Source: a virus
Virus record (IMG/VR): IMGVR_UViG_3300010370_000071
Coordinates: 1-42,501 of that record
DNA: 42,501 nt
Reading direction: 5' to 3' (one strand)
The position numbers and the translations under genes were made by a program. Below are positions 27,701 to 42,501 of the stretch, piece after piece. Numbering within the stretch: the stretch's first letter is position 1; each line of letters opens with the position of its first letter. The notes below the pieces were generated by a model. The model did no database searches, was not told where the DNA came from, and was given only the letters and a program-made list of their open reading frames with translations.

Positions 27701-29356
27701 AAAATGATAGATAGAAAAGTTGCTGGAATAGCAATGCTTCCTATCCAAAGAGAGTCTAACAAAAAAACTAATCAAGTAATTGAAGCTGGTAAACCTTTGT
27801 CTGGTCAGTTCTTTAATGAATTAGAGTATAAAGTAGATGAAGATGGAAAAATTGTAATAAACAAAAAAATAGATCCAAAAACCAAAAAACCATTTAATGA
27901 AAAACAATTTACTATAACTGGTAATAAATATAAGTTTGATTTCTTAGTTCCATTATATAGAGAGTCAGTTCAAGAAGAGATGGATAAACTCTTCCCCAAA
28001 AAATTAGGTGAACTTGAACCTGGTGGTAAAAGAGCAATAGCAAATAGAATTAACAATATTAGAGAAAGACTATCTGAAATAACTGATGAGTTAAGTGACA
28101 TAAATGTTAAAAATCTAGCAATTATAAAAGTTTTAATTGGTAATGCAGTAAAACAAAATATATCTATTCCAAAAGATATTATTGAGCAATATGAATCTAA
28201 AAATAAAAACTTAAAACAGTATACTAGCAAAGAAAAAATTAAATCAGTAATAGACAAATACAAAAAGAATTTAAATTCTTCCGAAAAGAACTTAAAAGAA
28301 CAATCAGATAAGTTAAGAAAAATTAAGTCTAATGTTTCATTTGATAATGTAGATAAATCAATATTTAATGAACAAAGTGATTTTATAAAAGAACAACTTG
28401 AATCTGATTCAAATTTTAAATATTATTTTGATCAACATAATAGTTTTTATAAAAATGCAGTAGATAGAAGTCCAACAGATAATCAAATTGTTGCTATTGA
28501 AACTATGAAAGAATCTGGTCTCTTAACAGATACAGATATATCAGATGCTGATATAAAATATTTGTCAATGGTTGAAGCATCAGAATTAATTCATGAGGGT
28601 GTAAAAAGAATTCAATATTTAAAAACATCAAGTGTTGAAAAATCTAAAGATTTTCGTGAGTATCAAAAAAATATATTTGATTTAATGAAAGCAACTAAAA
28701 TAAATTCTAATGATGTTTCATTAGTACAATTATTTGAGGATGCTGAAAAAATTTCTAAAACAGGAAGAACTAAACAAGCTATTGATTTATTAAATATAAA
28801 ATTAAATAACTTAAATTCAGAATATAATAAAGAATTTACTAGTGATGTTAGAAAAACTAAAATCTTAAAGGAAATATTAGACATTGAACAGTTTAAAGAG
28901 GCATTAATAGATACATATGAAATGCCTATAGATATAGTTGAGCAAGTACAAGAATCAGAAATTGTTGAAGAATTTATAGATGAATTTGATACAGATATTA
29001 ATGTTGGTGATATAGTATATTCAAGAAAGAAAAATAATAATACACCATATAAAGTCAAAGAAAAAACTAAAGATTCTTATGTATTATCTCCTCCAAGAGG
29101 TAAGGCAATAACAGTTAAAATTGATACTTTTGCAGATAACTATATAACTAAAATAGAAATGGACTCAGGTAATATTACTCCACCTACTGTTGAAGTAACA
29201 GATACAGAAAAAGAAATACTTAACGAAAGTCAAGTTACTGTAAATAATTTCTTACAAAATCAAGATAGCAAAACTAAAGCTTATGAAAAGGGTATTAAAA
29301 ATACTCCTGAAGAAAATAGAAAAAATTTATTGAATAAAACAAAAAACTGTTTATAA
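21710..29356 (+). CDS. Giant cargo-type protein with PD-(D/E)XK nuclease-like domain (2548 aa)
   Basis: This 2548-residue protein probably acts as an ejected multi-domain virion protein. A Gly/Ala-rich hydrophobic stretch lies at about 225-265, and another (FASGFAMGTMAGPLNSAVPF) lies near 577-600; these could insert in membranes. Long charged helices and coiled coils follow (about 640-1150). At about 1900-2010 a PD-(D/E)XK nuclease-like core is visible: E1942-x-D1944 in GEIDLILVD, D1957-I-K1959 in VVDIKSG, and Q1988-xxx-Y1992 in LQTAAYATML, the order found in RecB/Cas4-like nucleases. A small SH3-like segment (VGDIVYSR, then YKVKEK) lies near 2430-2480. Its stop overlaps the start of the next giant gene (TAATG at 29354-29358), which suggests linked function. 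Its targets are unknown. Confidence 0.85.
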   Translation: MAKEEEYFNPLDPLGPEFGKINQPIADTKGYTAFEGSRVMLPQPNMPVGNQIAYSNLPKLENLNAPNNQIYDNVVRTNINNPSIPQKAFDINEYNDSLKGYLDNMFQSNQDLNDYARIYSYDAGSTNLSTFYKRYSAYGQEKFDEVGFSPLRDNDANFNARTTRWDDFSRMMSNSFVPLFTQGFTSGFKSFGKILRGDFTSSNREDAEVYETAAAIGQSTKGGIGGFMNNAAMNFSYTAGIITEAIAEETLGAILAAPTGGSSLFTTTVNNARKLPSLLKGVKTGYQGVRQTLNLTKEISGARKVYNAIKESQFLKGTLNQLNPLNNTMGALKQIRQADNFTNLGKIYKTAGGLYRDSRNINMALSEARLEGGMVQNKIYDELYREAYKANGNKVPSDKELAEISKQAEQGGYETLLENVGIIYATNAITFNNITGPRGGLRNFIKSTTDDIYEIASREGSKNFGKIGKVIYNRTSKAFELEANNLKTWAKGWLKNPIHKSVGKTVGYFKANFSEGIQENLQETIAQANEKYFMDSYNSPTLKSMLYSRAAIKGINKGRLDYFSDAWAQQNPFTAQGFETFASGFAMGTMAGPLNSAVPFLSRTYNRMFNKEEYTRWKEAQTTVAQNLVNELNNTNLETFLNGYTQNLGVQEKVAATKQKGTKKEALDAETEAYISQVQLLKRTGTFGIFSEKLKDLHNLTDDEFAEAVGIEKDQVNKYRARVDSSIERLNKIKNLYERVERKNPNPINVSDLKEDDPEYQDKLILYHAWETVNRNIVFFNETYDDILYRRSEINKKYNNNKKLKNISNRKRNLLFNPIRPFNETKEAIDGVGVPTGDMLEEINLLEKELALEKETTKNPAKIQMLQEQINLTKDYAEQYRALDIFQRREEYVGLIKEKLKAETGTEYTDEQVLKYMEDEFGAVNDTQKRDELLKNLRNSYTNYLKTHAKQNGQEIFNEDIDETWELMKDYYDLDIEKTKISKYVDVLNDPMAFLEAVRRNNDWLKKVTAKKIEYYEKIIREEMDNIRANALLNALANKGLFISTEDMLNYFADGVPPTEIYDDINKKIYPIGSKEYSQIYQDYFKKYEELKEDLNPNKSEIIDEAYQQQINALEKEKQEKIDALPKEDVETQINNLEGKISLKSLSQEIQNDQYAELKVYQEKGSTNDRDEIEKKLEINGVIPQYGEFREAISTLTEILEDENGNTKRGRKFIGDEEIKAAQEEGVTGETGTMPAASNTSTRTIKIGNKNYKARVELYPDGTATYNISEVDAAGLPLKTLSETEYTEQIDDSITSELETVTVYKDKAGQLRLKNEEGDILDSEDTTQRYSSARIYIIDKVSDPVEIEKITNFYNDKIEEVKEAYVASKENMELEIPYEDVTPESNLDTPDLSEFKEELYNNYQKEYVNKLSPSEKNALLEDEDLNNKTFEEWYSRPENKKYFDEYNNANRPVLSKQETIMNIRGVEVNTNTKTLEQLIAYRDDVNNQITSNNEEINSLDPETEKEQIKKYEEKNKELSLNLKNLNNIISARQFANFPEEIKSAVRSIQKIFKAQSKVEKGVELTEDDEVTGLKKGQKAYRINGKFHRRTTQAIQDVIDETYEYQGQEEVDTIFKQTIAKKGLNPASIKEFVDRLRSLPDTGEAALPGTNDIFFNKLQQELNALPNMTAEQIELEGQKNEILTKANKEKNLAKQQALFDQAEEIQNKIDGAYTAPVSDKKAEGTNARGTTYKGETTEKDGLKVTEYSEFRPDGKRISKGGRIMLPSEFIEEYNITDQDYLDSLEGATEIRIYQVRVGKDGKSGISIQGTFPEGNVEMEVAGVELAALEGTAQPTTKDNFDTATKKNTTKNIIDTFFAENTYEDSRIAGNFFDLAKDYLESGKKPEFNEEIITREAYDSLIEYLDTIKKRVDSGELYIVGRDLIVYDSDIVHQDVKKDRIAGEIDLILVDKDGIYVVDIKSGETNKFLNFNNLSTTNKKFTKRNEYTLQTAAYATMLEKMIDRKVAGIAMLPIQRESNKKTNQVIEAGKPLSGQFFNELEYKVDEDGKIVINKKIDPKTKKPFNEKQFTITGNKYKFDFLVPLYRESVQEEMDKLFPKKLGELEPGGKRAIANRINNIRERLSEITDELSDINVKNLAIIKVLIGNAVKQNISIPKDIIEQYESKNKNLKQYTSKEKIKSVIDKYKKNLNSSEKNLKEQSDKLRKIKSNVSFDNVDKSIFNEQSDFIKEQLESDSNFKYYFDQHNSFYKNAVDRSPTDNQIVAIETMKESGLLTDTDISDADIKYLSMVEASELIHEGVKRIQYLKTSSVEKSKDFREYQKNIFDLMKATKINSNDVSLVQLFEDAEKISKTGRTKQAIDLLNIKLNNLNSEYNKEFTSDVRKTKILKEILDIEQFKEALIDTYEMPIDIVEQVQESEIVEEFIDEFDTDINVGDIVYSRKKNNNTPYKVKEKTKDSYVLSPPRGKAITVKIDTFADNYITKIEMDSGNITPPTVEVTDTEKEILNESQVTVNNFLQNQDSKTKAYEKGIKNTPEENRKNLLNKTKNCL
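27407..27739 (+). other. PD-(D/E)XK nuclease-like domain (within 2548-aa protein)
   Basis: This domain covers roughly residues 1900-2010. The catalytic set is readable as D1944 in GEIDLIL, D1957 and K1959 in DIKSG, and the helix motif QTAAY (1988-1992), all in canonical spacing. The fold is known for DNA-end processing or phage DNA metabolism. In an ejected protein it could act on host or incoming DNA, but that is inference. Confidence 0.75.
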
Positions 29357-32300
29357 TGATAACTTGTAGCATTAATGATGACGCTATTATAGCTGAACTA
29401 TATTCTGATGTAAGTGGTTCAATGAACCAAGCTCTAAAATCAAATAGCACATTTGATGCTATGGATTATATGAAAAATCTTTTCAAAGATTTTTCTGAGC
29501 AAAGTTCACCAGAAGTTGCAGCAAAATTTCTACAGTCTATACCAAGAATAATTATTGATGTTAAAAATAATTTTTTTGAACAATTAAAATTAAAAGAAGG
29601 ATTAAGATTAGATGCACTAGATGATTTAAATACAGAATTTAAAAATCCAGATACTGGTGTTGCATCAATCATTAATACCTTAAGTGATATTTCAGAGTTA
29701 CAAGAAAAAAAAGATATAATAGAAAATGAACAAAAAAATGAAATAAGTTTAGATCAAAATCCTTCAATTGAACCGCCAGTTGTAAGACTACCAGAAAGGT
29801 TTAGTACACTAAGTGCCTATGGTGGTACTTCTCAAGCATATGTAAAATTAGATCCAAATAAGAAAGAAAAGAATCCTTTTTTATCAATTGAAGATCTTAA
29901 CCAAGAACTTACATATATGGTTAAGACTTTTGATAGAATAAAAGAAATACAGAATACTACAAATCCATTAAATGGAATAGTATATCAAGGAAAAAGATTA
30001 GTGTTTAAAGCTATCACATTAAGTGCGTATGCAACACCTCAGAATTTAAAATATCTTGATAAATCTACACAAAGTGAAATAGATAAGTCTAATGCTATAG
30101 TTGATAGAAATTTAAAAGTTTCTGAAGACATTAAACAAGCTAATCAAAGAGTAATATTATTAATTAGTGATGATAAAGGAAATACTCTTTACTTTGATGA
30201 AGAGGGTAATATAACAACAGCAGAACTTGGTAAACCAGTGTATCAGTTTATGAGAACCATAAGAGAAAAAAATGGTGAATATTCTGCTACCAATATGTAC
30301 AATACTGAAGACTTATTAATATCTGTTGAAGCTTTTGTTGAGAATACCTACAATCCAGAAATAGATGGAACAAAAGAAGAATATACAAAACTTGTAAGAG
30401 AACAAAGAAATAAGGATCTTGAAGAACTGTATACAATTCAAAATGAAATATTAAATGGAGAAACCAAAATTTTACCAATAACAAATGTTACAAATGGTGT
30501 TCCCACTAATTTATCAGCTACAAAAATATATTTAAATGATTTAATAAATCTTCCATCTTTTAAAGATAAAGTATCTGAAATTTTAAAGAGTATTTATACA
30601 ATTCCATTTGATCAAAAAAACTTTAAAAGTGGATCAGCATTTATAAAAATTAATGGTAATGACTTTTTTATAAATAGACCACTTATCACTGATGACTTAG
30701 CATTAGAAATTGCAGAGGTATTGACTAATAAAAATATCAAGAATGAGGATAAAAAAGAATATACCAATCAGTTTTTTGAAGGATTTGATTTAGGAAGAAC
30801 TAGTAAACAGTATGATTTATTTTATAGTAAAGATGGTAAATCAATTTACTTTAACTTATATGATGGTTTTGGAAAAGATGCAAAGAAACTTGATGTAAAA
30901 ATAAAATTAGATCAAGAGGCTCTTAAAAAAGCTGGAGATGAAGTAATAAATAAATACAAAGAGTATATAGTAGAATATCTTACACAAAAAGGATTAAAGA
31001 AAAATTCTAATAGAACACAAATTATTTTTAAAAATACAGCTTTAGCAAGTGGTGTTTATATGAGATTAAACACAGAACGTACAGGCTTTAATAGAAATGC
31101 AGATTATTTTGATTTTATAAAAGGTCTAAAGTCAGATATAGAGCTTACAAATGCAGATCCAGGATTTTATAATTATGTAGTCAATTTTACTACAGATAAT
31201 AGCTCATTTGGTAAAGAGATTTTAAAAGAGCAAGATCCTTTTGATGAAGACTTTGCTCCACCAAAACCAACAGTATATGAAGAGGAAGCATATAGAATAG
31301 TAAATACTGCAACATCAGATGCATACAAATCTACTATTGACCAAGCAAATCCTTACGATAGTTTTTTAATTACTAAATATTTTATTGAAGAGATAACAAA
31401 TAACTATAGTAAAAATCAAACTAGGGAATTTGCTGAAGATATATTTAAATTACTTTCAGAGGGATATAATTCAGTTTTAAATCAAAATCAAAAAGATTTA
31501 ATTTTAAAAGAAATTAATAAAACTAAATTTTCTCAAAAAACAGCTTCTGAAAAAACTAATCCTCCTATAGAAGAACAGATAAGTGAGGGTATTGCTTCTA
31601 AAAATAATTCTCCAGAGAATAATACTCCAGTAAATGATATATTTAAAGAAGAAAAAATATCTGAAAAAAATAAAAAGTATTTTGAAAGGTCAGGCATAAA
31701 GCCAGAATTTATTAGTCCACTAAAAGTTAGACAAGCTAAGAGTTGGTGGAATAGTAAAGAGATGGAGCCAATGAGAAAACTCATTGAGTTTGGTCATATG
31801 GCAAACATTGTAAACTCAGATGTATATGCAAGATTTATTGTAGCAGGTGCTACTCTTGCTGATACAAGTATTATGGGTAGGTTAGAGGTTAATAAAAAGA
31901 TGGGTAGTATATATCAAAACCTTACTATTTATCATGAAGCATGGCACGTATTCTCCCAGTTGTTTTTAACTAAACAACAAAAGTTAGATTTATACAATGA
32001 GCTCAAGAACTACAAAGATGCTAAAGGAAATACTCCTTATAGTAAAATGAGCTTTAGAGAATTAGAAGAAATGCTTGCAGAAGATTTCCGTAACTATGTT
32101 AAAACAGGAAAAGCAAAACAAGCAGCTCCAAAAAGAAATACTTTATTTAGAAAAATAGTTGAGTTCTTAAAACAACTATTTGGTAAGGTGCTTAAGAAGT
32201 TTAAAAAACAAGATACAGTTATAAATAGTCTTAACTCGCCAATGGCTCAAAGATTATTTAATGAACTATATATTGGAGACTTTAATAAGTACTCTCCAAG

Positions 32301-35300
32301 TATTGATAATCAAATGTTTACTCAATTAGATAGAGGACCAAGACAGGTTGAATATCCATCACAAGATGCACTATCTCCTGGGGATGGTCTATTAATTTCT
32401 AATTCTATTGACAATTTTTTTGCTGAAAAAATAAATGAGCTTCAAGAAGAAAGTAAAAGTGTTGGCGTAAGTCTTTCAGCACTCATGAATCCAAAATATA
32501 AATCATATTTATACAAGGATGCTAAAGAAAGATTTGAAGAAATTTTAAGACAAGAGGAAGCTAAACTTAAAACACTAGAGGGTGTTAAAGATTTTAATGA
32601 GTTAAAGACATTAGAAGAGATAGAAAGCAATGCTATTGCTATAATGAAAGCTTCTGATGGAAAAAATAAATACTTCTTTTTAACATCACAAGTTAGGGAC
32701 TTTAATAACTTATTACCATCTACAAAAAGAGGAGAAAGAGTAAGAGGAGAGGATTATAAAGATAGTGTTAGAATAGTTGGTGATTTTTACAAACATGGAA
32801 CAATAAAAAAGAATGGAAGAAATATAGACATTGTTCTAGTTACAAGACCACAAGATGCACAAACTCAATTTGATAATTATAAAAAAGCTAAGGCTAAAGT
32901 TTTTACTGAACTCATAAAACAACCTGTCTTAGATAAAGTAGAGATTGATCAAGATCAAGAAACTATTAGAGATAATGTAAGAATATTACAAACTACATTA
33001 AAAAACTGGGGTGATGAAAAAAGTGGTATAATAAAATACCATATGGAAAATACAGCTTATGAAGTATCTAGAAAAAAATATGCTGTTGAAGATGATTCAG
33101 TTATTCAAAATAAAGATCAAGAATTAGATGAAAATGGAGAACTAGTTGATGAAGAAGAAAACAAAGGAGGTCTAGAGCAGAATAATGAAAAAACTGGAAA
33201 ACAATCTTTACAACAAACAATGAGTAAACAAACAATATTTGTTTTAAAAACATTATTGAAAGTAGATTCAGAAGGTAATTTTGTAAAAGATAGATTTGGA
33301 ATTATAGAGAGAGCAGAATTTAGTAAAACTTTTGCTATAGTTGCTAAAACAATAGGGGGTATAAGAGATAGAAATGAAGCATATACAAGGTTAAAAGAAG
33401 AATCAGAAAAGTTTCCAGAATTAAAACAGTTATTTAAATATAAATTTCCTGATCCTAATAAATCAGGAGCTGAAGTTAATACATTTGAATTTGATTTAGC
33501 AAGAGGATTTTTTCAAGACTTTGCAAAACCTCAGATTGATTACCAACAACTTTATGCATACTATAGAGAAGATGATAAAGAATTAGACTTTATAGTTAAA
33601 AAATCAGATCTTGCAGTTGATAATGTTGTAACTAAGTGGATTAATACTTTTGAGACACTTAAGAAAAGTAAATATGTAAATGTTTCAAGAGATAACATTA
33701 GATCTTTAAACTTATCTGAGGTTGTAAAAGATTTTAAGGATAGTAAAAGTGATACTTTAAACTTAAATAAACAAATACAATTTGCAAAAATATTGGGTAT
33801 TGAATTACAGGACAATGACAATATTAAAAAAGAGTTAGATAAACCTACTAGCGTTAGTTATTATGGTTTAGCATATATCTATGATATTCTTAAAAAAGTA
33901 AATCAACTAGATATTTTAGAGTCTAATGGTGAAACAATAACTGAAGAACAAAAACTTTTACTTAATAATTTTAAGAAAAATCCTTTAAAAGTTTTATCTG
34001 TTGGCTTCTCAGAATCTGTATTAGATAAAAGTAAAAAAGGTAAAGTAAGCGAACTTACACAGCTTAAAAGGTTAGCTGAACTACAAATAATGTATGGTTA
34101 TGATAGTTCAAGTACTGCTATAATTAGATCTAATCAAACCGTTGGTTATAAGGAAGTTAACTGGAGTTCACTTCATGCTGCAGCATATGCATTAAACCAA
34201 GTTCAATATATGCATCAACTTTGGACAGATCCAAGATATAACAGTATGTCTCATCTTAATCCAGAAATAAATACTCATGTTAGACACCTTAAAATAATGT
34301 CAACATTATTCAATTTTGAAAATAAAGGTGAGAAAAAGAAAAATAAAAGTTTAGAAGTATTTGCTCAAGATGGATTTGCATTTACAGATTATTTTGGAAA
34401 TAATTCTGGAAATGTCACAACTGATCTAGACCCTCTATCTAAATTTATATTTGAATTCCATAGTTTTAGTTTAGCAGGTGTAGCTGAACTTCCAAGAACT
34501 TCTGATAAAAAGTTTTCATATGGAGTTAAAATTAATGGTGGTATAGACCAAGCAAGATTAGGTTTTGATGCTTCTGAATCAGATAAAAATTTATATATAA
34601 ATACTAATAAATTTTTAACAGAAGAAGGTGAGCAAATTGCAAGAGTAGGATACTTGTATGGCTATATCCAAGGAGAGTATGACAGAATTAAAAAGTTTAG
34701 AGGCCCAGATAAAGATAAATATCTTAGAATTAAAGGATATAATAATAGAGTTATTGAAAACGGTAAAGAACTTTATTCTGGAGAAACTTTTGTAGCATTC
34801 AAAGGAATGTTAAGTCAGAATACAAAAAATAAATTGTATGAACTTGCAGACCAACAATCTGATATTGATATATTAAGTTATGTCAAAGAAGTGGATAAAG
34901 AGCTTGGTACAATGATTAAGAATGATATAAAAAAATACTTTGATGAAATTTTGTCAGATATAAAATCCTTATACTTTAATAACATACCTTATATATCTAA
35001 ATCTCTATTTGAAAAAGTTGGTATTAAAAGAGAAGACTTGTCTGGTGATGCTCTTAAACAATTTCAAAAAGATAATAAATTAGTTAATGCATTGCTTAAA
35101 TCATATATGTTTAATGATTTCATACACAAATATGAGACAAGTATTATATTATTTGGGGATCATGCACAATGGGATCACGGCAAACAAGACTGGTCAAAAA
35201 GAATTCCTGGCCTTACATCAGATGGTATTGGGTTTATGTTTGATGAACAAACACAAAGCTTTATAAATGATGTATTTAATAAAGAAACATATGCTTCTAA

Positions 35301-38300
35301 ACTAACTGAAAAAGAAGGTATTAATTATGATAACTTTGTTTTTTCTGAGAAACTTAATTCAGCAGTTATTGAAGATCCAGTAAGAGAATCAATATATATT
35401 AAAGAATATCAAAAACTTTGGGAAAAAGATTATCTAAAAAGATTTAGTCCAGAAGTTGCAAAAGAAAAAGCAGCAGCAGATGCTGAGTTATATAAAAAAA
35501 TGAAAGAATCAGATGGTATGGCATATGTTACACTTGATGCATACCGGACACTCAAGAAAACAGGAAGAGGTTGGAGCTTGGCTGAAGAAGCATTGTATCA
35601 AAAAATAATTAATAATGAAACAATTACATCAAAAGATATAGATCAGTTTTATTCAATCTATAAACTGCATTATTTTGGAACAATTGAAAATGATGTTTTA
35701 CCCGTAAGAGGAATGTATAAATTTTCTGTTATTCCACTTATCCCTGGTGTAAATGCAGTAGCTGGTTCTGAGCTTGAAAAACTTCATAAGCTAATGTTAA
35801 AACAAAATATTCAACTTGTAACATTTGGTTCAGGATCAAAAGGTGCTTATTTAACTTCAGATGGAAAAACTGATAATGTTTTTTCAGATAAAGAAATGAA
35901 GTTTGTAAATACAGAAGTTAATGATGAAGGTGAGAATATATTTAAGTTTACAAATAATCCAATTTATTTAGCTAATCTTAAAGAGGTAACAGTGATGAAT
36001 GACTCCTATAAGGGTGAACTTCAAATTGCTACACAAACAAGAGCTATTATAATAGACAACTTATTTGAAGATGGAGAATTAAAAAATTCAAATAATAAAG
36101 CTGTTGTAGATGAATATTCTAATACAATTAAAGAATACTCAAAATTATTAAAAGAAGATCTACTAAATGGTTTAGGTATTGAGTTAATAGATGGTAGAGT
36201 AATTGGTGATTTTACAAAGTTTGTTGAAATAATTAGAAGTGAACTTACAGAAAGAGATACACCACAACATTTAATAAAATTAATTAATACAGATAATGAC
36301 GGAAAACTTGCAATGGATTTATCATTGCATCCTGAATCAGATAGTATTGAAAAATTACTTGTAAGTTTAATACAAAGAGGGGTTGTTAAACAAAAAACTA
36401 AAGGTGAGCCATTAGTTCAATCTCCAGCAACATTTACAAATGGTATTTGGGATTCTCCTTACATAGGTCTTACTGAATTAAAAGAAATTCAAAAACTTTT
36501 AGGTACTAATACTCTTCCTTTTTATTTAATAAATGGAGAGACTAGATCTGAAGAAATGAAAGTTGCAATTGCTTTACAAGGAGACTTTAGAAATTTACTT
36601 AATGCAAAAGATTTAGATGGAAATAAGATTGAAACAATTGAAAGATTAAATCAATTAATTAAAAATCCTGAATGGTTTGCAAAAAATAAAAAATCACTTA
36701 CACTATTTGGACCTAGAATTCCTAATGATGCTCACAATACTATTGAAGCAGCTACAGTCTGGCATTTCTTACCAGAGTCATTTGGTAATACTATTATCAC
36801 ACCAACTGAAATTGTAGCAAAAGCAGGGTCAGATTTTGATGGGGATAAATTATTTATGTCTATGCCTAACATAGATTCTGAAGGAAACTATATTGACAAA
36901 GGAGTAGAAAATTTTTATAAAGTTTTAGAAGAGACTAAAGAACTTGAGAAGAAAAACAAACTTCCTGAAGGTAGACTTACATCTAGACAGTTAATTAATT
37001 TACAGAAAAAATATTTACAGAACAAGTACTTACAAGCATCTGTAGAAATATTAATGCTTCCTGAAAATGCAGTAACATTAATCAAACCTAATGGTACATA
37101 TTTAATGGATAGGTATGAGGAAAACGTTACTGCAAATAGAACAGGTTATGATAAGTTTAAAAATGTTGATAATAGACCTTCTGATGTAAATACAAAAGGT
37201 GAAAAAATTCCAAGTCCAACAAGCCACTTTACTATTGGATATAATTTATATGTTCATGAAGCTAATTTATCTCTTGAACCTTCATTAGGTATTTTAGCTA
37301 AATTGACTAAATCAATTCCATTATATAAAGCTGCTGGTGCAAAAATGCCAGCAAGATATAGAATCTCAGATACATTAAAAGTACCATTAAAAGTAAGATT
37401 TGATGTTAATACTACAGTAAATTCTAATAATGAAGAAGTAGTTTCAGTTGGTGCTGAAAATAATGTAGCCGGAGAAAACATATCTGATACAACATCTCAC
37501 TCTTTACAAGGAGTATTGGATAGAGCTAAGGCAACATTCCCTTTTGAATTAAAATTAGTCCCTGAAGCAATGACAGTTTATGGTTATTTAACCAGAGCTG
37601 GTATGGATCAGGAAGACATAGTTTATTTACTTAATCAACCACTAGTTGCAAAGTATTTAAATATGCAAAAGATGAATAATTCATCTATTAATAATGCATT
37701 GTTTGGTTCTAAAAAAGATTTTGAAATTAAAAATGAGATAATTTTAGATGTATTAAATTCTCAATTAAATGAGGATCAAATAAAAAAATTAATAGCTGAT
37801 GTTAGTAATGATAAGTTATCAGCAACGTTAAAATCTTTACCCGAAGATTTGAAAATTACTGTTACTATAGGTAAAAATATAGAAAACACAACTGTAAAAG
37901 ATTTAAGAAATTCTTTAAACACAAAAAAGATAAACCCTAATTTAATATCCGGAATCAGATCAGCTGATGAAGAAAGTACTAAAATTTACAATAGAATATT
38001 AGGTGCAAATTGGTTGTCTCATAAAGAAAATTTATATTTTTTAATTGAAAAATTAGCAAAAGTTAATCTTACAAATAAAGATAAAATTACTAAATCTGAT
38101 TTATATAGTGTTCTAAATATTCAGGATGCGTCAAGTAGTAAAGCTCTTTTAATTTTCTTGCATTATTTAGAATTAGAAAATCAATACTCAAGAATGAGTG
38201 ACTTTGAACAAGCATTTTCTCCAGATACATCTAAACTAACAACAGTACAAGAAGCAAAAGATAGAAAAAATGTATTAAAAACTTTTGAAAAAGATGAAGA

Positions 38301-41300
38301 AATAGATCAAGACTTTGTAAAATATATGACAAAGCAGTCTGTTATATCTTCATTAATGTTTGATGACTTAACAATTGATTTGGTTACTCCCCTATTTGAA
38401 ATAAAACTTAATGAAAAAATAACTAGCTTCTTAAAAAGAGGTATTGATAATACAAGAGCTGAAATTATTTTAAAATATGGTAGAGGTGCTGATGGAAGAG
38501 CTAATTTCACAAGAGCTTTTGGTAATAATCTAATTAACTATATATATCAAAATTATCAAACAAACTTTTATGATGAAAGTGGTAAACTATCTAATTTACC
38601 ACAAAGCACTGATAAAAAAACAATTGAAATAAATAATGATATAAATACTCCTGTATTAGTTCAAGAAGATAAAATTATAGTAAATACAAGACTTATTGAA
38701 TTTGATTATGCTACTAAAAACTATTTAGAAAATAGGAATCCAGAAACATCATATGAAGGTAGGGGGTATGATACATTTAAATTGGGTCAAGATCCTTTTA
38801 TAAGTTTAAGATCATTTTACAGATATAATATAGAAAGAGCAATACTAGAAAGTAAAAATAGTATAGATACTCTTAGTAATGATGATTACTTTATTAGTCT
38901 TGTTGCTAAAAATGACGGTAATGCGGAAAATGCATATAAACAATATATATCTGAAAGAGCATTACTAAATAGTTATAACCCTATGTATATCATGGGTAAA
39001 ACTAAATATAGTTATAGAGATAATATCCTAGAGCTTCTTAATTCATTAGAAAACTACCCGGCATTATTTGAAAAATTCACTATACTATCTCAGATATCTC
39101 CACAAAGAAATAGAGATGGTTATAAAATTATAAGACTAAATAATAGAAATGATATAAAGGGTGCTTTAGCTCAAGAGTATTTTAATCAAATAAGACAGTT
39201 GGGGGATTACTCTATACAAAAATTAGATAATCCTAAAAATGATCCATTGATTGCTTCTAAAGATAAAAGAATCAGTGATCTATTCAATGTGTTTTCATTG
39301 ATGATGTATTATCAACATGGTATTGGAAAGACCACAACAGGCTTTGTAAAAGGACTAGATTCTACACAATATAAATCTTTAATGCAAGATATCACTCCTG
39401 CATTTATGAGTAACTATATTGAAACTAATGAAAAGTTTGACAACTTATATGTTTCTGATTTAGTCCTTGCTACTATTTTTAATAAAACTTTAGAGGCTTC
39501 TAATTTTAATATTTTTGCAAGTCCTCGTAATATTTATTATAATAGTGACATGGAGCAAATAGCCACGCAAGTGGATATAGAACTTCAAAAAGCAGGGGAA
39601 GAAGAGTTTGATATAAATGAAGGAAAACAAAGTATACCTGAAGAATTTAAAAGAGGAGACAGACTTATCTTAGATGAAGATGTTAAACTTTATAATTCAG
39701 TATTAATAAAAAATAATGGTGTTAAACCTAAAAGATGGACAACACCAAATACTAAGTTTTCTGAATTCTATAATGGGAGACAACAAGGTATGCCAAATAG
39801 TACAGCTTGGTTATTGAATGACAATAACTTGTATGACATGGTGGAGATAGGTGCAGACTCAGATATGGCAGGTACAGTATACTATGAAAATGTAGATCTA
39901 GAAACAGGATACCAAATGTTTAAGGAGGGTGAAGGTCCTACTCAACCTAGTGTAAGAAAAACATATTCCGGAAAAGTAACTAGCTTACAACCTAATCAAA
40001 TATTTGTATTTGGTAGTAATCCAGAAGGTAGACATGGTGCAGGTGCAGCTAAATATGCTAAGGATAATTTTGGAGCAGTATATGGTCAAGGGGAAGGATT
40101 ACAAGGTCAATCATATGCCTTACCAACTAAAGATTTAAGAATTAAAACTAATAATAGTTTACGTTCTATATCAGCTGAGGATATAACTAAAAACATTAAA
40201 AAACTATATGAAGTAGCCAGACAAAACCCAGCTAAAGAATTTTTAGTGTCTGATTATTCTGAGAGCAATCTTAATGGTTATACTGGTCAAGAAATGGCAG
40301 ATATGTTTAGTGCTGCTGGACCCATACCTTCTAACATAGTTTTTAATGAAAACTTTGATAAATTAATTGCTACTCAACCTACTACAGCTACTACAAACAA
40401 TCCAGCAGAGTTTACTAATCATTCTGGTGGTGCTTATGGTGGAGATACTTTCTGGGATATAATTGGTAGAGAGTTTGGGGTCACTAATCATATGCATTAT
40501 AAAGATGCTGGTAATACTAACCTATCTCAAAAACTTAGAAATGCAGGTGTTAAAGCTACTGTTCTTACTAAAGAACAAATGGATGCTGCAAGAGATGAAG
40601 TAGAAAGATTACTTGGAGAAAGATATCCAGATACTATTCCAGGCAATCTTAAAGTAAGAAATTACTATCAAGTTGCTAATGCAGATGCTGTTTTTGCTAT
40701 AGCAGAGCTGAATGGAGATTCTAGATTTAATACAGGTTCTGTATTTGGGGGTACAAATGTAGCAGTTCAATTAGGTATTAAATTAAATAAGCCTGTTTAT
40801 GTTTGGGATATATCAAGCAAAAACTGGCATAAATATAATCCAAGCACTAAAGAATTTGAGCTTACAGATACTCCAATACTTACTAAAAACTTTGCTGGTG
40901 TAGGCTCTAGAGATATAGAATCTTACAATGTACAAAAAGAAGATAAGTGGGTTCCAAGAGAACAATACAAAGGTAAAGAAGTAGAAGAGGCAGCTAAACA
41001 AGCTATTAGAGATGTGTATGCTAATACATTTAAAGCTACTAATCAACAACAAGGTAGTGTTAAAGAAGGTGTAATGTCTATAAAAGATGTTTTAAAAGAA
41101 TATACTTTAGATGAATTAAAACAAGGAGTTAATTTAAGGTCATTACAAGATAAAGTGTTAAAAGGTGATGAAGAAACTATTAAAACTGCATACAATTATT
41201 TAAAAGCAAATGAAAAGGTAGAGTTATTAAAAAAAGAGTATGATAATACAGTAGAAAAAAATAAGGAAATTACTAGAAATATCAATAGTCTAACTCAAAG

Positions 41301-42501
41301 AATTAATAATACTATACCAACAAAAGTTGGTGATATACTAAATGTTTATAATAATGAAAATGCTTCTGATTATAAAGTTAAAGTATTGGAAATAACTAGA
41401 AACAAGAACCATGCTATTTTAAAAGTAATAACAGCAAAGAAAAAAGAATATACAATAAGAGTTGAAAGTGATGGTAGTACAAAGAGTGGACAAATTGATA
41501 ATTTTGTATTTGAGACTAGTGGAGAGAATGTAGATAAGCTGAGAGCTGAAAAAGAAAATCTAAAAAGTCAATTAGTTTCTGTTAAAAACTACTTTGATTA
41601 TAACAGTGCATTTTCAGAGTCATGGAAAGATTATTTTACTCCTACTCAGCCATCTACTAGTGTTAAAGAAGGTGTATCAGAACTATTTGAATCTAATCCT
41701 GAGTTAGCTAAAATAGGTACACCTCAACAGTATTCTCAATATCTGTCTACTATATTTCCAGATAGTGTTGTAAGAGAAATCTTATATCACATGACTTCTG
41801 ATTCTGGTAAAAAAGGTATAGAAGAAAAAGGTAGATTTTTAAAACCAGGAGAACCAGGTTATCAAAAAAGTGATTATGTCACTACAGGTGGTATATATTT
41901 TACAGATAATAATATCTATGATGAAGAAACACAAATGTATGGTTCTCCCATATCTGGAGCTTTTGGTAGTGCTTTTATATCTGCAATTTTAAATATTAAA
42001 AATCCTTTGATTGATCTAACCAAGAGTTTTGGAGATATATCCAAAGTAGATTTAAAAGGCTATGATGGTTTTGTTGGAACAAATGAGTCAAAAGAAATAG
42101 GTGTGCTGGAGCCAGACCAAATACACATATTAGGAAGTAAACAAGATATAGAAGGATTTAAAGAGTTTGTATCTACTCAACCTACTGGACCAGTAAAGGA
42201 TGGTGGTTCTGAATCTTCTATAAATACTGATATGGAAGAGTATCAAAAACTAGTGGAAGCATCTAATGGAGTTCAACCAAAATCATTTACAGTAGGTACA
42301 AGAACTTGGAATCTTAATAAGTTTGGTAATTATGATTGGTCAGATCCAACTACTAATCAAATCTACATGAGAAATGTTGATATGGAAACTGGTAAGTCAG
42401 TCCCAGAACCATTAAGAGAAGAACCTGTAAATCCAAAGTTAATAGAAGCTAATTTAAATTGGATAAATACAAATAAAAAATTACTAGATTTAGATAATAA
42501 A
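29356..42501 (+). CDS. Giant multi-domain virion RNA polymerase polyprotein, 5' part (at least 4382 aa)
   Basis: This frame is open from the ATG at 29356 to the last base of the window (4382 codons) with no stop, so the C-terminus lies beyond. The start overlaps the previous stop (TAATG), and stops occur in this frame just upstream. Domains in order: an unassigned N-terminal region; a zincin-like metallopeptidase at about 835-960 (HEAWH 860-864); a two-barrel RNA polymerase of the crAss-like/phi14:2 gp66 type at about 1915-2780 with DFDGD at 2493-2497; a macro-like domain at 3545-3675; a SLOG-like domain at 3687-3895; an SH3-like segment near 3990; and an ADP-ribosyltransferase-like domain at 4116-4273. 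The polymerase likely transcribes early phage genes after ejection, as known for relatives. The downstream cassette is joined by TQP/VK(E/D)G linkers. Proteolytic maturation is plausible but not shown. Confidence 0.93.
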   Translation, partial: MITCSINDDAIIAELYSDVSGSMNQALKSNSTFDAMDYMKNLFKDFSEQSSPEVAAKFLQSIPRIIIDVKNNFFEQLKLKEGLRLDALDDLNTEFKNPDTGVASIINTLSDISELQEKKDIIENEQKNEISLDQNPSIEPPVVRLPERFSTLSAYGGTSQAYVKLDPNKKEKNPFLSIEDLNQELTYMVKTFDRIKEIQNTTNPLNGIVYQGKRLVFKAITLSAYATPQNLKYLDKSTQSEIDKSNAIVDRNLKVSEDIKQANQRVILLISDDKGNTLYFDEEGNITTAELGKPVYQFMRTIREKNGEYSATNMYNTEDLLISVEAFVENTYNPEIDGTKEEYTKLVREQRNKDLEELYTIQNEILNGETKILPITNVTNGVPTNLSATKIYLNDLINLPSFKDKVSEILKSIYTIPFDQKNFKSGSAFIKINGNDFFINRPLITDDLALEIAEVLTNKNIKNEDKKEYTNQFFEGFDLGRTSKQYDLFYSKDGKSIYFNLYDGFGKDAKKLDVKIKLDQEALKKAGDEVINKYKEYIVEYLTQKGLKKNSNRTQIIFKNTALASGVYMRLNTERTGFNRNADYFDFIKGLKSDIELTNADPGFYNYVVNFTTDNSSFGKEILKEQDPFDEDFAPPKPTVYEEEAYRIVNTATSDAYKSTIDQANPYDSFLITKYFIEEITNNYSKNQTREFAEDIFKLLSEGYNSVLNQNQKDLILKEINKTKFSQKTASEKTNPPIEEQISEGIASKNNSPENNTPVNDIFKEEKISEKNKKYFERSGIKPEFISPLKVRQAKSWWNSKEMEPMRKLIEFGHMANIVNSDVYARFIVAGATLADTSIMGRLEVNKKMGSIYQNLTIYHEAWHVFSQLFLTKQQKLDLYNELKNYKDAKGNTPYSKMSFRELEEMLAEDFRNYVKTGKAKQAAPKRNTLFRKIVEFLKQLFGKVLKKFKKQDTVINSLNSPMAQRLFNELYIGDFNKYSPSIDNQMFTQLDRGPRQVEYPSQDALSPGDGLLISNSIDNFFAEKINELQEESKSVGVSLSALMNPKYKSYLYKDAKERFEEILRQEEAKLKTLEGVKDFNELKTLEEIESNAIAIMKASDGKNKYFFLTSQVRDFNNLLPSTKRGERVRGEDYKDSVRIVGDFYKHGTIKKNGRNIDIVLVTRPQDAQTQFDNYKKAKAKVFTELIKQPVLDKVEIDQDQETIRDNVRILQTTLKNWGDEKSGIIKYHMENTAYEVSRKKYAVEDDSVIQNKDQELDENGELVDEEENKGGLEQNNEKTGKQSLQQTMSKQTIFVLKTLLKVDSEGNFVKDRFGIIERAEFSKTFAIVAKTIGGIRDRNEAYTRLKEESEKFPELKQLFKYKFPDPNKSGAEVNTFEFDLARGFFQDFAKPQIDYQQLYAYYREDDKELDFIVKKSDLAVDNVVTKWINTFETLKKSKYVNVSRDNIRSLNLSEVVKDFKDSKSDTLNLNKQIQFAKILGIELQDNDNIKKELDKPTSVSYYGLAYIYDILKKVNQLDILESNGETITEEQKLLLNNFKKNPLKVLSVGFSESVLDKSKKGKVSELTQLKRLAELQIMYGYDSSSTAIIRSNQTVGYKEVNWSSLHAAAYALNQVQYMHQLWTDPRYNSMSHLNPEINTHVRHLKIMSTLFNFENKGEKKKNKSLEVFAQDGFAFTDYFGNNSGNVTTDLDPLSKFIFEFHSFSLAGVAELPRTSDKKFSYGVKINGGIDQARLGFDASESDKNLYINTNKFLTEEGEQIARVGYLYGYIQGEYDRIKKFRGPDKDKYLRIKGYNNRVIENGKELYSGETFVAFKGMLSQNTKNKLYELADQQSDIDILSYVKEVDKELGTMIKNDIKKYFDEILSDIKSLYFNNIPYISKSLFEKVGIKREDLSGDALKQFQKDNKLVNALLKSYMFNDFIHKYETSIILFGDHAQWDHGKQDWSKRIPGLTSDGIGFMFDEQTQSFINDVFNKETYASKLTEKEGINYDNFVFSEKLNSAVIEDPVRESIYIKEYQKLWEKDYLKRFSPEVAKEKAAADAELYKKMKESDGMAYVTLDAYRTLKKTGRGWSLAEEALYQKIINNETITSKDIDQFYSIYKLHYFGTIENDVLPVRGMYKFSVIPLIPGVNAVAGSELEKLHKLMLKQNIQLVTFGSGSKGAYLTSDGKTDNVFSDKEMKFVNTEVNDEGENIFKFTNNPIYLANLKEVTVMNDSYKGELQIATQTRAIIIDNLFEDGELKNSNNKAVVDEYSNTIKEYSKLLKEDLLNGLGIELIDGRVIGDFTKFVEIIRSELTERDTPQHLIKLINTDNDGKLAMDLSLHPESDSIEKLLVSLIQRGVVKQKTKGEPLVQSPATFTNGIWDSPYIGLTELKEIQKLLGTNTLPFYLINGETRSEEMKVAIALQGDFRNLLNAKDLDGNKIETIERLNQLIKNPEWFAKNKKSLTLFGPRIPNDAHNTIEAATVWHFLPESFGNTIITPTEIVAKAGSDFDGDKLFMSMPNIDSEGNYIDKGVENFYKVLEETKELEKKNKLPEGRLTSRQLINLQKKYLQNKYLQASVEILMLPENAVTLIKPNGTYLMDRYEENVTANRTGYDKFKNVDNRPSDVNTKGEKIPSPTSHFTIGYNLYVHEANLSLEPSLGILAKLTKSIPLYKAAGAKMPARYRISDTLKVPLKVRFDVNTTVNSNNEEVVSVGAENNVAGENISDTTSHSLQGVLDRAKATFPFELKLVPEAMTVYGYLTRAGMDQEDIVYLLNQPLVAKYLNMQKMNNSSINNALFGSKKDFEIKNEIILDVLNSQLNEDQIKKLIADVSNDKLSATLKSLPEDLKITVTIGKNIENTTVKDLRNSLNTKKINPNLISGIRSADEESTKIYNRILGANWLSHKENLYFLIEKLAKVNLTNKDKITKSDLYSVLNIQDASSSKALLIFLHYLELENQYSRMSDFEQAFSPDTSKLTTVQEAKDRKNVLKTFEKDEEIDQDFVKYMTKQSVISSLMFDDLTIDLVTPLFEIKLNEKITSFLKRGIDNTRAEIILKYGRGADGRANFTRAFGNNLINYIYQNYQTNFYDESGKLSNLPQSTDKKTIEINNDINTPVLVQEDKIIVNTRLIEFDYATKNYLENRNPETSYEGRGYDTFKLGQDPFISLRSFYRYNIERAILESKNSIDTLSNDDYFISLVAKNDGNAENAYKQYISERALLNSYNPMYIMGKTKYSYRDNILELLNSLENYPALFEKFTILSQISPQRNRDGYKIIRLNNRNDIKGALAQEYFNQIRQLGDYSIQKLDNPKNDPLIASKDKRISDLFNVFSLMMYYQHGIGKTTTGFVKGLDSTQYKSLMQDITPAFMSNYIETNEKFDNLYVSDLVLATIFNKTLEASNFNIFASPRNIYYNSDMEQIATQVDIELQKAGEEEFDINEGKQSIPEEFKRGDRLILDEDVKLYNSVLIKNNGVKPKRWTTPNTKFSEFYNGRQQGMPNSTAWLLNDNNLYDMVEIGADSDMAGTVYYENVDLETGYQMFKEGEGPTQPSVRKTYSGKVTSLQPNQIFVFGSNPEGRHGAGAAKYAKDNFGAVYGQGEGLQGQSYALPTKDLRIKTNNSLRSISAEDITKNIKKLYEVARQNPAKEFLVSDYSESNLNGYTGQEMADMFSAAGPIPSNIVFNENFDKLIATQPTTATTNNPAEFTNHSGGAYGGDTFWDIIGREFGVTNHMHYKDAGNTNLSQKLRNAGVKATVLTKEQMDAARDEVERLLGERYPDTIPGNLKVRNYYQVANADAVFAIAELNGDSRFNTGSVFGGTNVAVQLGIKLNKPVYVWDISSKNWHKYNPSTKEFELTDTPILTKNFAGVGSRDIESYNVQKEDKWVPREQYKGKEVEEAAKQAIRDVYANTFKATNQQQGSVKEGVMSIKDVLKEYTLDELKQGVNLRSLQDKVLKGDEETIKTAYNYLKANEKVELLKKEYDNTVEKNKEITRNINSLTQRINNTIPTKVGDILNVYNNENASDYKVKVLEITRNKNHAILKVITAKKKEYTIRVESDGSTKSGQIDNFVFETSGENVDKLRAEKENLKSQLVSVKNYFDYNSAFSESWKDYFTPTQPSTSVKEGVSELFESNPELAKIGTPQQYSQYLSTIFPDSVVREILYHMTSDSGKKGIEEKGRFLKPGEPGYQKSDYVTTGGIYFTDNNIYDEETQMYGSPISGAFGSAFISAILNIKNPLIDLTKSFGDISKVDLKGYDGFVGTNESKEIGVLEPDQIHILGSKQDIEGFKEFVSTQPTGPVKDGGSESSINTDMEEYQKLVEASNGVQPKSFTVGTRTWNLNKFGNYDWSDPTTNQIYMRNVDMETGKSVPEPLREEPVNPKLIEANLNWINTNKKLLDLDNK
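31858..32236 (+). other. Zincin-like metallopeptidase domain (residues ~835-960 of giant protein)
   Basis: The motif YHEAWHVFSQ puts HEAWH at residues 860-864 (HExxH: two zinc ligands and catalytic Glu). Downstream ELEEMLAEDF offers E909 as a gluzincin-type third ligand, 45 residues after the second His. This pattern occurs in peptidase domains of phage polyvalent proteins. A role in cutting the polyprotein or a host protein is inference. Confidence 0.78.
35101..37680 (+). other. RNA polymerase catalytic core (residues ~1916-2775 of giant protein)
   Basis: The beta'-like barrel is marked by AGSDFDGDKLF, with D2493, D2495 and D2497 as predicted Mg2+ ligands, preceded by RIPNDAHN and ITPTEIVAK. 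The beta-like barrel upstream shows candidate catalytic lysines in MYKFSVIPLI (K2122), FGSGSKGAY (K2162) and YKGELQIATQTR (K2219). Conserved flanks include VTLDAYRTLKKTGRGWS and GYLTRAGMDQEDIVYLLNQP. This is the single-chain polymerase type of crAss-like phages, related to eukaryotic RNAi polymerases. Confidence 0.92.
39938..39949 (+). repeat. TQP linker repeat 1
   Basis: CTACTCAACCTA recurs exactly at 40370-40381 and 42173-42184 in the same frame and encodes T-Q-P. A related copy, CCTACTCAGCCA, is at 41641. Each copy lies at a boundary between recognisable domains: before the macro-like domain, before the SLOG-like domain, before the ADP-ribosyltransferase-like domain and after it. Confidence 0.75.
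39988..40380 (+). other. Macro-like domain, A1S_2505 phage family type (residues ~3545-3675)
   Basis: The signature IFVFGSNPEGRHGAGAAKYA, then GAVYGQGEGLQGQSYALPTK, matches the small phage family I know as A1S_2505, which has a macro-like appearance (glycine-rich loops that could bind ADP-ribose or a related nucleotide). The rest (ISAEDITKNIKKLYEVARQ, FLVSDY) fits an alpha/beta fold. Assignment is from memory. Activity (binding or hydrolysis of ADP-ribose) is not shown. Confidence 0.68.
40414..41037 (+). other. SLOG-like Rossmann domain (residues ~3687-3894)
   Basis: HSGGAYGGDTFWDIIGREFG near 3689 opens a domain that continues through ADAVFAIAEL, TGSVFGGTNVAVQLGIKLNKPVYVWD and FAGVGSRD (about 3846-3853). 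Glycine-rich loops with this order are typical of the SLOG/YpsA-like superfamily, which binds nucleotides and is often linked to NAD or ADP-ribose signalling. Family-level confidence is moderate; ligand and function are unknown. Confidence 0.6.
41056..41073 (+). repeat. VKEGV direct repeat, copy 1
   Basis: AGTGTTAAAGAAGGTGTA (S-V-K-E-G-V) occurs exactly again at 41659-41676, 603 bases (201 codons) downstream in the same frame. A related VKDGG follows the third exact TQP linker near 42193. Confidence 0.85.
41659..41676 (+). repeat. VKEGV direct repeat, copy 2
   Basis: This is an exact 18-base copy of 41056-41073. Here it directly follows the TQP linker (PTQPSTSVKEGV). The two copies enclose a helical stretch plus a small beta-barrel-like segment, as expected for a cassette gained or lost by recombination. 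Confidence 0.85.
41701..42174 (+). other. ADP-ribosyltransferase-like domain (residues ~4116-4273)
   Basis: Readable elements in order are YHMT (Y4144-T4147), GGIYFTDN (4178-4185), NIKNPLIDL, and KEIGVLEPDQIHILGSK (4246-4262). They match the ART-type domains seen in phage polyvalent proteins: an NAD-contacting Y/H-x-T strand, a GIYFT strand and a terminal Glu before a P-x-QIHIL strand. E4247 is the candidate catalytic Glu. Such domains modify host proteins or sense NAD; the target here is unknown. Confidence 0.68.

Follow-up and report, generated by a model that had tools for sequence, protein, structure and literature searches.

This analysis concerns a giant open reading frame (ORF), ORF9, in virus record IMGVR_UViG_3300010370_000071, a contig of 42,501 bases that was analysed as a whole and is referred to here as the window (W in locus pairs). 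ORF9 occupies positions 29356..42501 of the plus strand, on which the features of ORF8 and ORF9 described below all lie, and runs from its ATG for 4382 codons to the end of the record without a stop, which bears out the original prediction of a single frame of at least 4382 codons. The frame contains a zincin-type motif, an RNA polymerase (RNAP) core related to those of crAss-like phages and a C-terminal array of further domains, here called cargo. Its C-terminus lies beyond the record. The nearest relative, L001/L018 (L numbers denote loci in our set), is 99.7% identical to the window across 27169-40385 (13.2 kb), and its frame stops 35 residues past the window's last codon. Because this relative ends there, the window probably lacks only about 35 residues; the true stop, which was to be found by extending the contig downstream, is thereby placed through the relative. 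The combination of zincin motif, RNAP and cargo in one frame recurs in relatives and is not confined to one contig.

The RNAP stretch at 35500..37002 was used as a profile of eight rows (the window and seven relatives), which matches PDB 6vr4_A with an E value of 6.4e-44 over profile positions 2-460. The catalytic DxDxD motif is present as DFDGD at residues 2493-2497 (36832-36846), and a single-sequence tblastn search against g066 of Cellulophaga phage phi14:2 gives E 5e-6. Judged from these comparisons, the ORF9 polymerase is a relative of the crAss-like phi14:2 enzyme, as was originally claimed. The whole 4382-residue protein gave chance-level matches only against Pfam, and a phmmer search of solved sequences gave none. 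A motif search places a zincin-type HEAWH at residues 860-864 (31933..31947). An HExxH motif lies upstream of the catalytic motif in every one of the 46 loci whose N-terminus is complete and in which over 2000 residues precede that motif (near-identical contigs counted), compared with 0.79 loci expected in shuffles; the zincin stretch itself gave two chance-level matches against solved sequences and no database match. Some variation was seen at the catalytic site. L007 and L008 (10922) have DYDGD in place of DFDGD, and in L009 (cr108_1, 11368-11662) the annotated RNAP frame stops at GSD within the catalytic motif. The next frame of cr108_1 may continue the RNAP, with an intron or intein possible, and the frame of L078 likewise ends where its match ends.

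The cargo array lies between two copies of a small repeated module, termed 'NGV', both recognised by tail comparison: an upstream copy opening the slot (39676..39918) and a terminal copy closing it as a C-terminal cap (42229..42396). Four modules stand between them. The first, at 39967..40368, is a macro domain of the A1S_2505/phrog_2072 family, residues 3538-3673 matching phrog_2072 with E 1.1e-33 and NCBIfam A1S_2505_Nterm with E 6.3e-33. The second, at 40405..41043, matches phrog_768 'DprA-like' (E 1e-5) and is assigned as a SLOG domain. The macro and SLOG profile found no match among solved sequences, and fold comparison was therefore used; Foldseek on its own returned nothing at or below E 0.001. 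Residues 3525-3900 were modelled from an alignment of 47 stretches taken from the window and related contigs, and the resulting model has a predicted local distance difference test score (pLDDT) of 90. The best macrodomain for its first half is human TARG1 (2l8r; Z 11.2, root-mean-square deviation (rmsd) 4.1 over 131 residues), and DarG (5m3e) gives Z 9.8 with rmsd 3.0 over 126; designed serine hydrolases of the OSH55 series reach Z 10.6 on this half, almost equal to macrodomains. The model supports a macro fold, with ADP-ribose binding or hydrolysis putative. Its second half resembles 3IMK, a putative molybdenum carrier that we take to be a SLOG-fold protein, with Z 12.5 and rmsd 3.8 over 150 residues. 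A glycine-rich SGGAxGxD loop is typical of the SLOG superfamily, and the corresponding S3690, G3691, G3692, A3693, G3695 and D3697 are conserved at 95% or more. Modelled fold and loop together support the SLOG assignment.

Module X (41068..41634), between SLOG and the last module, was found in one of 43 tails, that of the window. The last module, at 41662..42177 (residues 4103-4274), resembles ADP-ribosyltransferases (ARTs) of the ART-PolyVal type. Five of seven aligned homologues match PF18760 ART-PolyVal (best 3.4e-11), the window's own module has no Pfam match, and an ART profile found nothing among solved sequences. A model of ART and cap is weak, with pLDDT below 50 over model residues 43-161. 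This third domain is therefore less surely an ART, its assignment being based on relatives. The original prediction had placed zincin, RNAP, macro, SLOG and ART-like domains in this frame and proposed a check by structure prediction: the motif, the RNAP homology and the modelled macro and SLOG folds agree with it, and for the ART the support comes from relatives. In PADLOC, matches were confined to NADAR-type and DprA-type modules from three loci, L018, L021 and L032 (best 2.4e-7); the window had none.

RNAP scans of viral contigs yielded 8 loci at first and then 69, of which 61 were parsed and eight short or weak ones (L069, L076, L079-L084) omitted. Of the 60 tails available, namely the window and 59 with the motif, 43 were picked by hand, leaving aside duplicates and truncated copies; also excluded were L027, one module different from L028, and L054. 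Near the C-terminus of these proteins, the domain array between the two copies of the small repeat module behaves as an exchangeable slot. Assigned cargo is present in 32 of the 43 tails, in 31 distinct ordered sets, and library matches in relatives include NADAR, ART-PolyVal, a 2-oxoglutarate (2OG)-Fe(II) oxygenase (AlkB-like), RNase H and a DprA-like domain. Labels for ASCH, DUF4326-like, P-loop kinase and NADAR_b/c modules were given by eye or by likeness in the absence of a library match of their own, as were those for the zincin of L052, the radical SAM of L074 and the opening module (2OG) of L017 and L019. The macro-SLOG-X-ART array of the window corresponds to macro-NADAR-X'-ART in L018, whose DNA is 99.7% identical up to the end of the macro domain, and in L017 and L019, which share the same backbone, the array opens with an apparent 2OG oxygenase. 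In 16 of the 43 tails, that of the window included, the slot is followed by a conserved cap module; the tails of other clades close with different shared sequences.

Identity on either side of the slot was measured in eight near-identical pairs. Different cargo was found in W/L018 (99.7% identity to the left and 93.3% to the right of the slot), L033/L034 (98.5/97.6%), L038/L040 (98.8/97.9%), L022/L045 (97.9/88.4%), L028/L030 (97.6/97.4%) and L021/L006 (96.6/87.1%), with identity on the right falling below that on the left in some pairs (L022/L045, L021/L006). L028/L027 (99.9%) differ by one module more, and L056/L061 (96.4/97.0%) by one inserted module. In seven of the eight pairs 94-100% of the DNA outside the slot could be aligned, compared with 0-60% inside it (between the outermost aligned points). 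In L056/L061, where the slot was set by hand, the insertion sits in the other phage, hence 100% is aligned both inside and outside; the extra module lies between two copies of the linker GCTCAACCA.

Modules also recur in other arrangements and in distant backbones. Shared modules stand in altered order in L022/L036 and L021/L034 (L005/L007), and module identity reaches 96% between phages whose RNAPs are 29-46% identical. The SLOG domains of L035 and L037, for example, are 95% identical compared with 40% for RNAP, and the macro domains of the window and L037 are 87% identical compared with 37%. Identity exceeds that of the backbone in 161 of 237 module pairs, and by at least 15 points in 77 of them (the pairs are not independent). 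The ratio of non-synonymous to synonymous substitution rates (dN/dS) is 0.08-0.41 in 17 of 18 chosen module pairs; the modules are under purifying selection. A fixed ADP-ribose toolkit was abandoned as a reading once the window and L018 were seen to share a backbone yet differ in cargo. What had been described as one toolkit is instead one draw from a shuffled slot, near-identical phages having NADAR, 2OG-oxygenase and other modules. A search of relatives for the same domain order, which had been suggested, shows that the zincin-RNAP-cargo frame recurs but that the order within the cargo varies.

Short linkers mark many of the seams between modules. In the window, ACTCAACCTACT (encoding TQPT) lies at 40372..40383, next to the BLAST breakpoint against L018 at 40385, and a 12-mer search finds it again at 42175..42186. 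TQPT-like linkers occur 63 times in 23,258 cassette residues (32 loci) compared with nine times in 102,923 residues elsewhere, and their first threonine codon is ACT in 44 of 46 (background 0.49-0.53). None was found in the downstream gene (0 of 47 loci), and the upstream gene has one in 9 of 48. Across 11 records of relatives (1.23 Mb; 102-120 kb each) the 12-mer ACTCAACCTACT has six matches in four records, all within the slot by coordinates, and ACTCAACCWWCT occurs twice in the window with 0.04 expected. Near-identical pairs with different cargo frequently break at linkers of the ACTCAACCTACT type: a linker stands no more than 30 nt away from 12 of 23 BLAST breakpoints (7.9% expected), under a linker pattern that excluded variants such as GQPT. 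Modules are gained, lost, reordered and exchanged between phages, probably via recombination at short conserved linker DNA (ACTCAACCTACT, TQPT). A second variable patch is present in the upstream gene, ORF8, at 26877..27168, ending near an AQPT linker (27200-27211); before this AQPT/TQPA linker the sequence differs in each of W, L017, L018, L020 and L021.

The same kinds of module were found at other sites and in other phages. In the 11 records, all five 2OG-family matches and both macro/SLOG profile matches fall inside the giant frame. A search that used only the macro or SLOG module as query returned 44 loci (at least five of them contigs already in the set), of which 28 are in frame with RNAP profile matches and seven more in frame with the catalytic motif (35/44); the remainder comprise three other giant frames, two fragments and four smaller frames of their own. 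L089, L115, L118 and L127 have cargo before the zincin motif, a second slot, and L090 and L119 look alike. Kolpuevirus cr126_1 has NADAR near the RNAP N-terminus and 'frurule', an isolate on Bacteroides cellulosilyticus, has a macro domain inside the RNAP at another site; these RNAPs (L139, L013) are otherwise 83-87% identical, and the modules are clean insertions. A macro domain lies near the RNAP N-terminus of cr112_1, and cr130_1, cr109_1, cr50_1 and cr272_1 have SLOG, NADAR or macro in giant proteins. Outside the crAss-like phages, the virion RNAP of N4-like Klebsiella phage Pylas (L014) has a SLOG insert at residues 983-1143; it was not found in the RNAP of MY01 (same genus), KpCHEMY26 or SP-058 (L145-L148 comparison), and Shigella phage B2 has a different, 113-residue insert at this site.

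The giant proteins share a further feature, the placement of their cysteines. In the 4382 residues of ORF9 seen, the sole cysteine is Cys4 (29365..29367), and ORF8, the 2548-residue giant protein upstream (21710..29356), has one cysteine, Cys2547 (29348..29350), which faces it across the gene junction. Among 31 complete giants selected for the count, which total 120,924 residues and 65 cysteines, 62 of the cysteines fall within the first 12 or last 8 residues. Adding four omitted distinct complete frames (L062, L066, L070, L078) gives 65 of 74, and all 41 complete frames, duplicates included, give 76 of 86. L062, L066 and L070 have the cysteine at the C-terminus only, L066 with two internal ones as well; L078, a distant frame that lacks the motif, has four cysteines by difference, none terminal. 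In the list of 46 loci without L078, a terminal cysteine is found at 42/42 complete C-termini and 35/38 N-termini, the upstream protein ends with cysteine in 34/36 and the downstream protein starts with it in 29/29. In the three N-terminal exceptions, L062, L066 and L070, the RNAP match starts far from the N-terminus, and in two of them the HExxH lies about 900-1100 residues further in, as expected if the upstream gene had been fused on. The upstream-protein profile missed every protein it was run against, gp67 of phi14:2 included, and is too insensitive to probe for such a fusion.

It was predicted beforehand that where the next protein also ends with cysteine its follower starts with one, and this was found in six of six cases. 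Of 99 gene junctions (47 loci, many related), 85 are flanked by two cysteines, 12 by none and two by a single one; the two one-sided junctions belong to L066, in which a small gene separates a Cys-ending protein from a Cys-starting one. Facing terminal cysteines in giants otherwise nearly free of cysteine were noted in the window, L037, L043, L066, L149 and L150. Phage phi14:2 is an exact fit, with Cys1797 (the last residue) in gp67, Cys3 and Cys2179 of 2180 in gp66, Cys3 in gp65 and no others. crAss001 also fits: gp47 has cysteine third from the end (in the part seen), gp50 has Cys5 and Cys2404 of 2412 with one extra internal cysteine, and gp49 has Cys5. Other gut phages retain the terminal cysteines and are looser inside, with internal cysteines numbering three in the cr111_1 RNAP, five in cr126_1, five in 'frurule', one in cr112_1, three in 'jaberico' and four in cr118_1; the RNAP frame of 'jaberico' includes the last subunit, and its C-terminal cysteine is missing. 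The avoidance of cysteine extends to the cargo, which has none in 13,116 residues across 29 loci of the window's wider clade and eight in 14,353 residues across all tails, all in one radical-SAM-like module. By comparison, four module homologues outside giant frames have eight cysteines in 1,095 residues, and giant frames found by module alone have 58 in 78,289. No cysteine occurs in the 3819 residues of the N4-like Pylas RNAP, nor in a window protein at 8357-10870 that matches baseplate-hub, transglycosylase and endolysin-type PHROGs.

These positions raise the possibility, to which we give even odds, that the giants of the RNAP block form a covalent train in which a disulfide bond links the C-terminal cysteine of one protein to the N-terminal cysteine of its successor. 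The order would be ORF8-ORF9-ORF10 in the window's phage, with ORF8 as the first car, gp67-gp66-gp65 in phi14:2 and gp47-gp50-gp49 in crAss001. We infer that such disulfides would form in the oxidising virion, that the coupled proteins would be threaded from the capsid in order, and that the reducing cytoplasm would then uncouple the cars. Cysteine would be shunned elsewhere, the swapped payload included, because a stray thiol would cross-link the train, and where two cars appear to be fused in one gene the couplers at that junction are missing.

Several known systems bear on this picture. In PhicrAss001 the homologous RNAP subunits gp47, gp49 and gp50 are virion components by mass spectrometry (PMC10172136), and the notes to the phi14:2 record mention mass-spectrometric detection of RNAP-block proteins. 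Presence in virions and ejection of the crAss-like RNAP are reported for phi14:2 and crAss001 (PMC10136315, PMC10172136), and the crAss001 homologues are virion cargo that must be partly unfolded for passage through the tail (PMC10172136, PMC10136315), with disulfides resolved elsewhere in that virion (PMC10172136, a study that analysed virions both reduced and untreated). ORF9 shares with phi14:2 gp66 (6VR4) and the PhicrAss001 proteins a homologous RNAP core with DxDxD and a three-protein block, virion-borne in those phages. Unlike ORF9, gp66 has only 2180 residues and gp50 only 2412, and the module profiles match none there. Fusion of an RNAP to ART and peptidase domains is already known: the N4-like virion RNAP is fused to MPTase, ART, lysozyme or PBECR in what are called polyvalent proteins (PMC5512222), which shows the original statement that the precedents are separate to be wrong. 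ORF9 resembles these in combining effector domains and polymerase in one polypeptide, in its HExxH motif and, through the matches of its relatives, in the ART-PolyVal family, and with RNAP, macro and SLOG in one frame it has the two or more conflict-related domains that characterise a polyvalent protein (Iyer 2017). Unlike them, its polymerase is of another family, that of N4 being related to single-subunit RNAPs, and the exchange between near-identical phages seen here is not described for polyvalent proteins in the available text of PMC5512222, in which 'crass' does not occur.

Phage Macro, NADAR and SLOG domains have been proposed to counter NAD-derived immune signals (PMC9503650), and these, with DUF4326 (here assigned by eye), often occur together there as in our arrays. 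The toolkits of that paper are described as typically stand-alone and 'crass' is absent, whereas here the modules are passengers of a polymerase. Polymorphic toxins likewise have a conserved carrier whose C-terminal domains are exchanged by recombination (PMC3482391); unlike them, the present proteins carry several modules each and a conserved C-terminal cap, so that the extreme C-terminus is not the variable part. The fast local diversification of one protein recalls the diversity-generating retroelements of Crassvirales (PMC10136315), but here whole domains are swapped rather than points changed, and RVT_1 (reverse transcriptase) was matched in 0 of 11 records of relatives, the window's own genome being incomplete. 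In the open-licence literature searched, there was no report of a shuffled payload on a crAss-like RNAP or of the terminal cysteines.

Taken together, our reading is of an RNAP giant with an exchangeable payload that is recombined at linkers, delivered together with the polymerase and most likely used in counter-defence; we put its probability at roughly 0.7. Because the crAss001 homologues are virion cargo that must partly unfold to pass the tail (PMC10172136, PMC10136315), with disulfides resolved elsewhere in that virion (PMC10172136), we read ORF9 as the putative middle car of a virion-ejected RNAP train. Arriving together with the polymerase, ahead of all phage gene expression, the payload would blunt immediate host defences, above all NAD-derived signals and ADP-ribosylation, counter-defence being the likeliest use because of the role proposed for phage Macro, NADAR and SLOG (PMC9503650). 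The original suggestion of a polymerase and an ADP-ribose toolkit acting at once is thus retained in part: the RNAP is joined to macro, SLOG and, less surely, ART, but the set is not fixed. That earlier account had no place for the repeat modules on either side of the slot, the linkers, the terminal cysteines or the variable patch of ORF8.

A number of observations weigh against this reading. Two of the window's four modules (X and ART) have no firm assignment of their own, many module labels were assigned by eye, and 11 of the 43 tails have no assigned cargo. In the identity comparison, 29 of the 237 module pairs fall short of the backbone by 15 points or more, and the ART pair of W and L018 has a dN/dS of 0.71. 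As for the linkers, the exact 12-mer ACTCAACCTACT is missing from seven of the 11 records, 11 of the 23 breakpoints are not near a linker as defined, and RecT and ERF recombinases have no match in the 11 records. The macro/SLOG profile search of these records missed the L055 macro domain seen in the tail comparison, so stand-alone copies could be missed too. The module profiles have no match in phi14:2 gp65-gp67 or in crAss001 gp49, gp50 and the C-terminal part of gp47; the payload is therefore not essential to the polymerase. Finally, the window's own macro-SLOG junction has no match in a second viral contig.

Assembly chimeras between co-occurring phages could in principle arise, as shared modules of up to 96% identity could mislead assemblers, and the contigs of L002, L003 and L004 end within the slot. 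Yet the same backbone and array recur under other dataset numbers, identical in L022/L024, L040/L057 and L052/L064, 99.99% identical in L050/L051, and identical as far as they reach in L030/L031 and L025/L026 (datasets may share samples), and clean module insertions are present in deposited genomes (cr126_1 and 'frurule'; Pylas compared with MY01). We consider chimeras extremely improbable. It is also very unlikely that the slot is a recombination hot spot gathering functionless passengers: the X modules of the window and of L018 have no relative in the set, as such passengers might, but the low dN/dS in 17 of 18 pairs and the absence of cysteine from the cargo of the window's wider clade argue otherwise.

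If the modules are functional, they might serve ends other than counter-defence. Their exchange at the C-terminus by recombination resembles that of polymorphic toxins (PMC3482391), and the array could be a toxin or exclusion device directed against competing phages, or against the host once it has been taken over. The family-matched modules, however, are mostly ADP-ribose-processing, oxygenase or nucleotide-binding domains, and the conserved cap follows the slot, so we regard such a device as improbable. Somewhat better placed, though still unlikely, is the proposal that the modules are accessories of early transcription, handling NAD-capped or damaged RNA or repairing or modifying the template for work in different hosts. 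The AlkB-like 2OG, RNase H and SLOG/DprA-like modules deal with nucleic acids and are fused to a polymerase, as accessories would be; against this, RNAP relatives with no assigned cargo exist (L065, with 955 residues after the motif; phi14:2; crAss001), and swaps between near-identical phages would better suit an arms race.

If the counter-defence reading is correct, the crAss-like phages, described as the human gut's most abundant viruses (PMC10172136), would include lineages that deliver changeable counter-defence enzymes joined physically to the polymerase with which infection begins, and that alter this payload through domain exchange and not through point mutation. The slot would then be a natural catalogue of candidate injected anti-defence domains, and its shuffling would explain the giant, variable RNAP-block genes annotated as helicase, DprA-like or hypothetical. 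The terminal-cysteine rule would offer a simple answer to how several huge proteins leave the capsid in order through a narrow tail.

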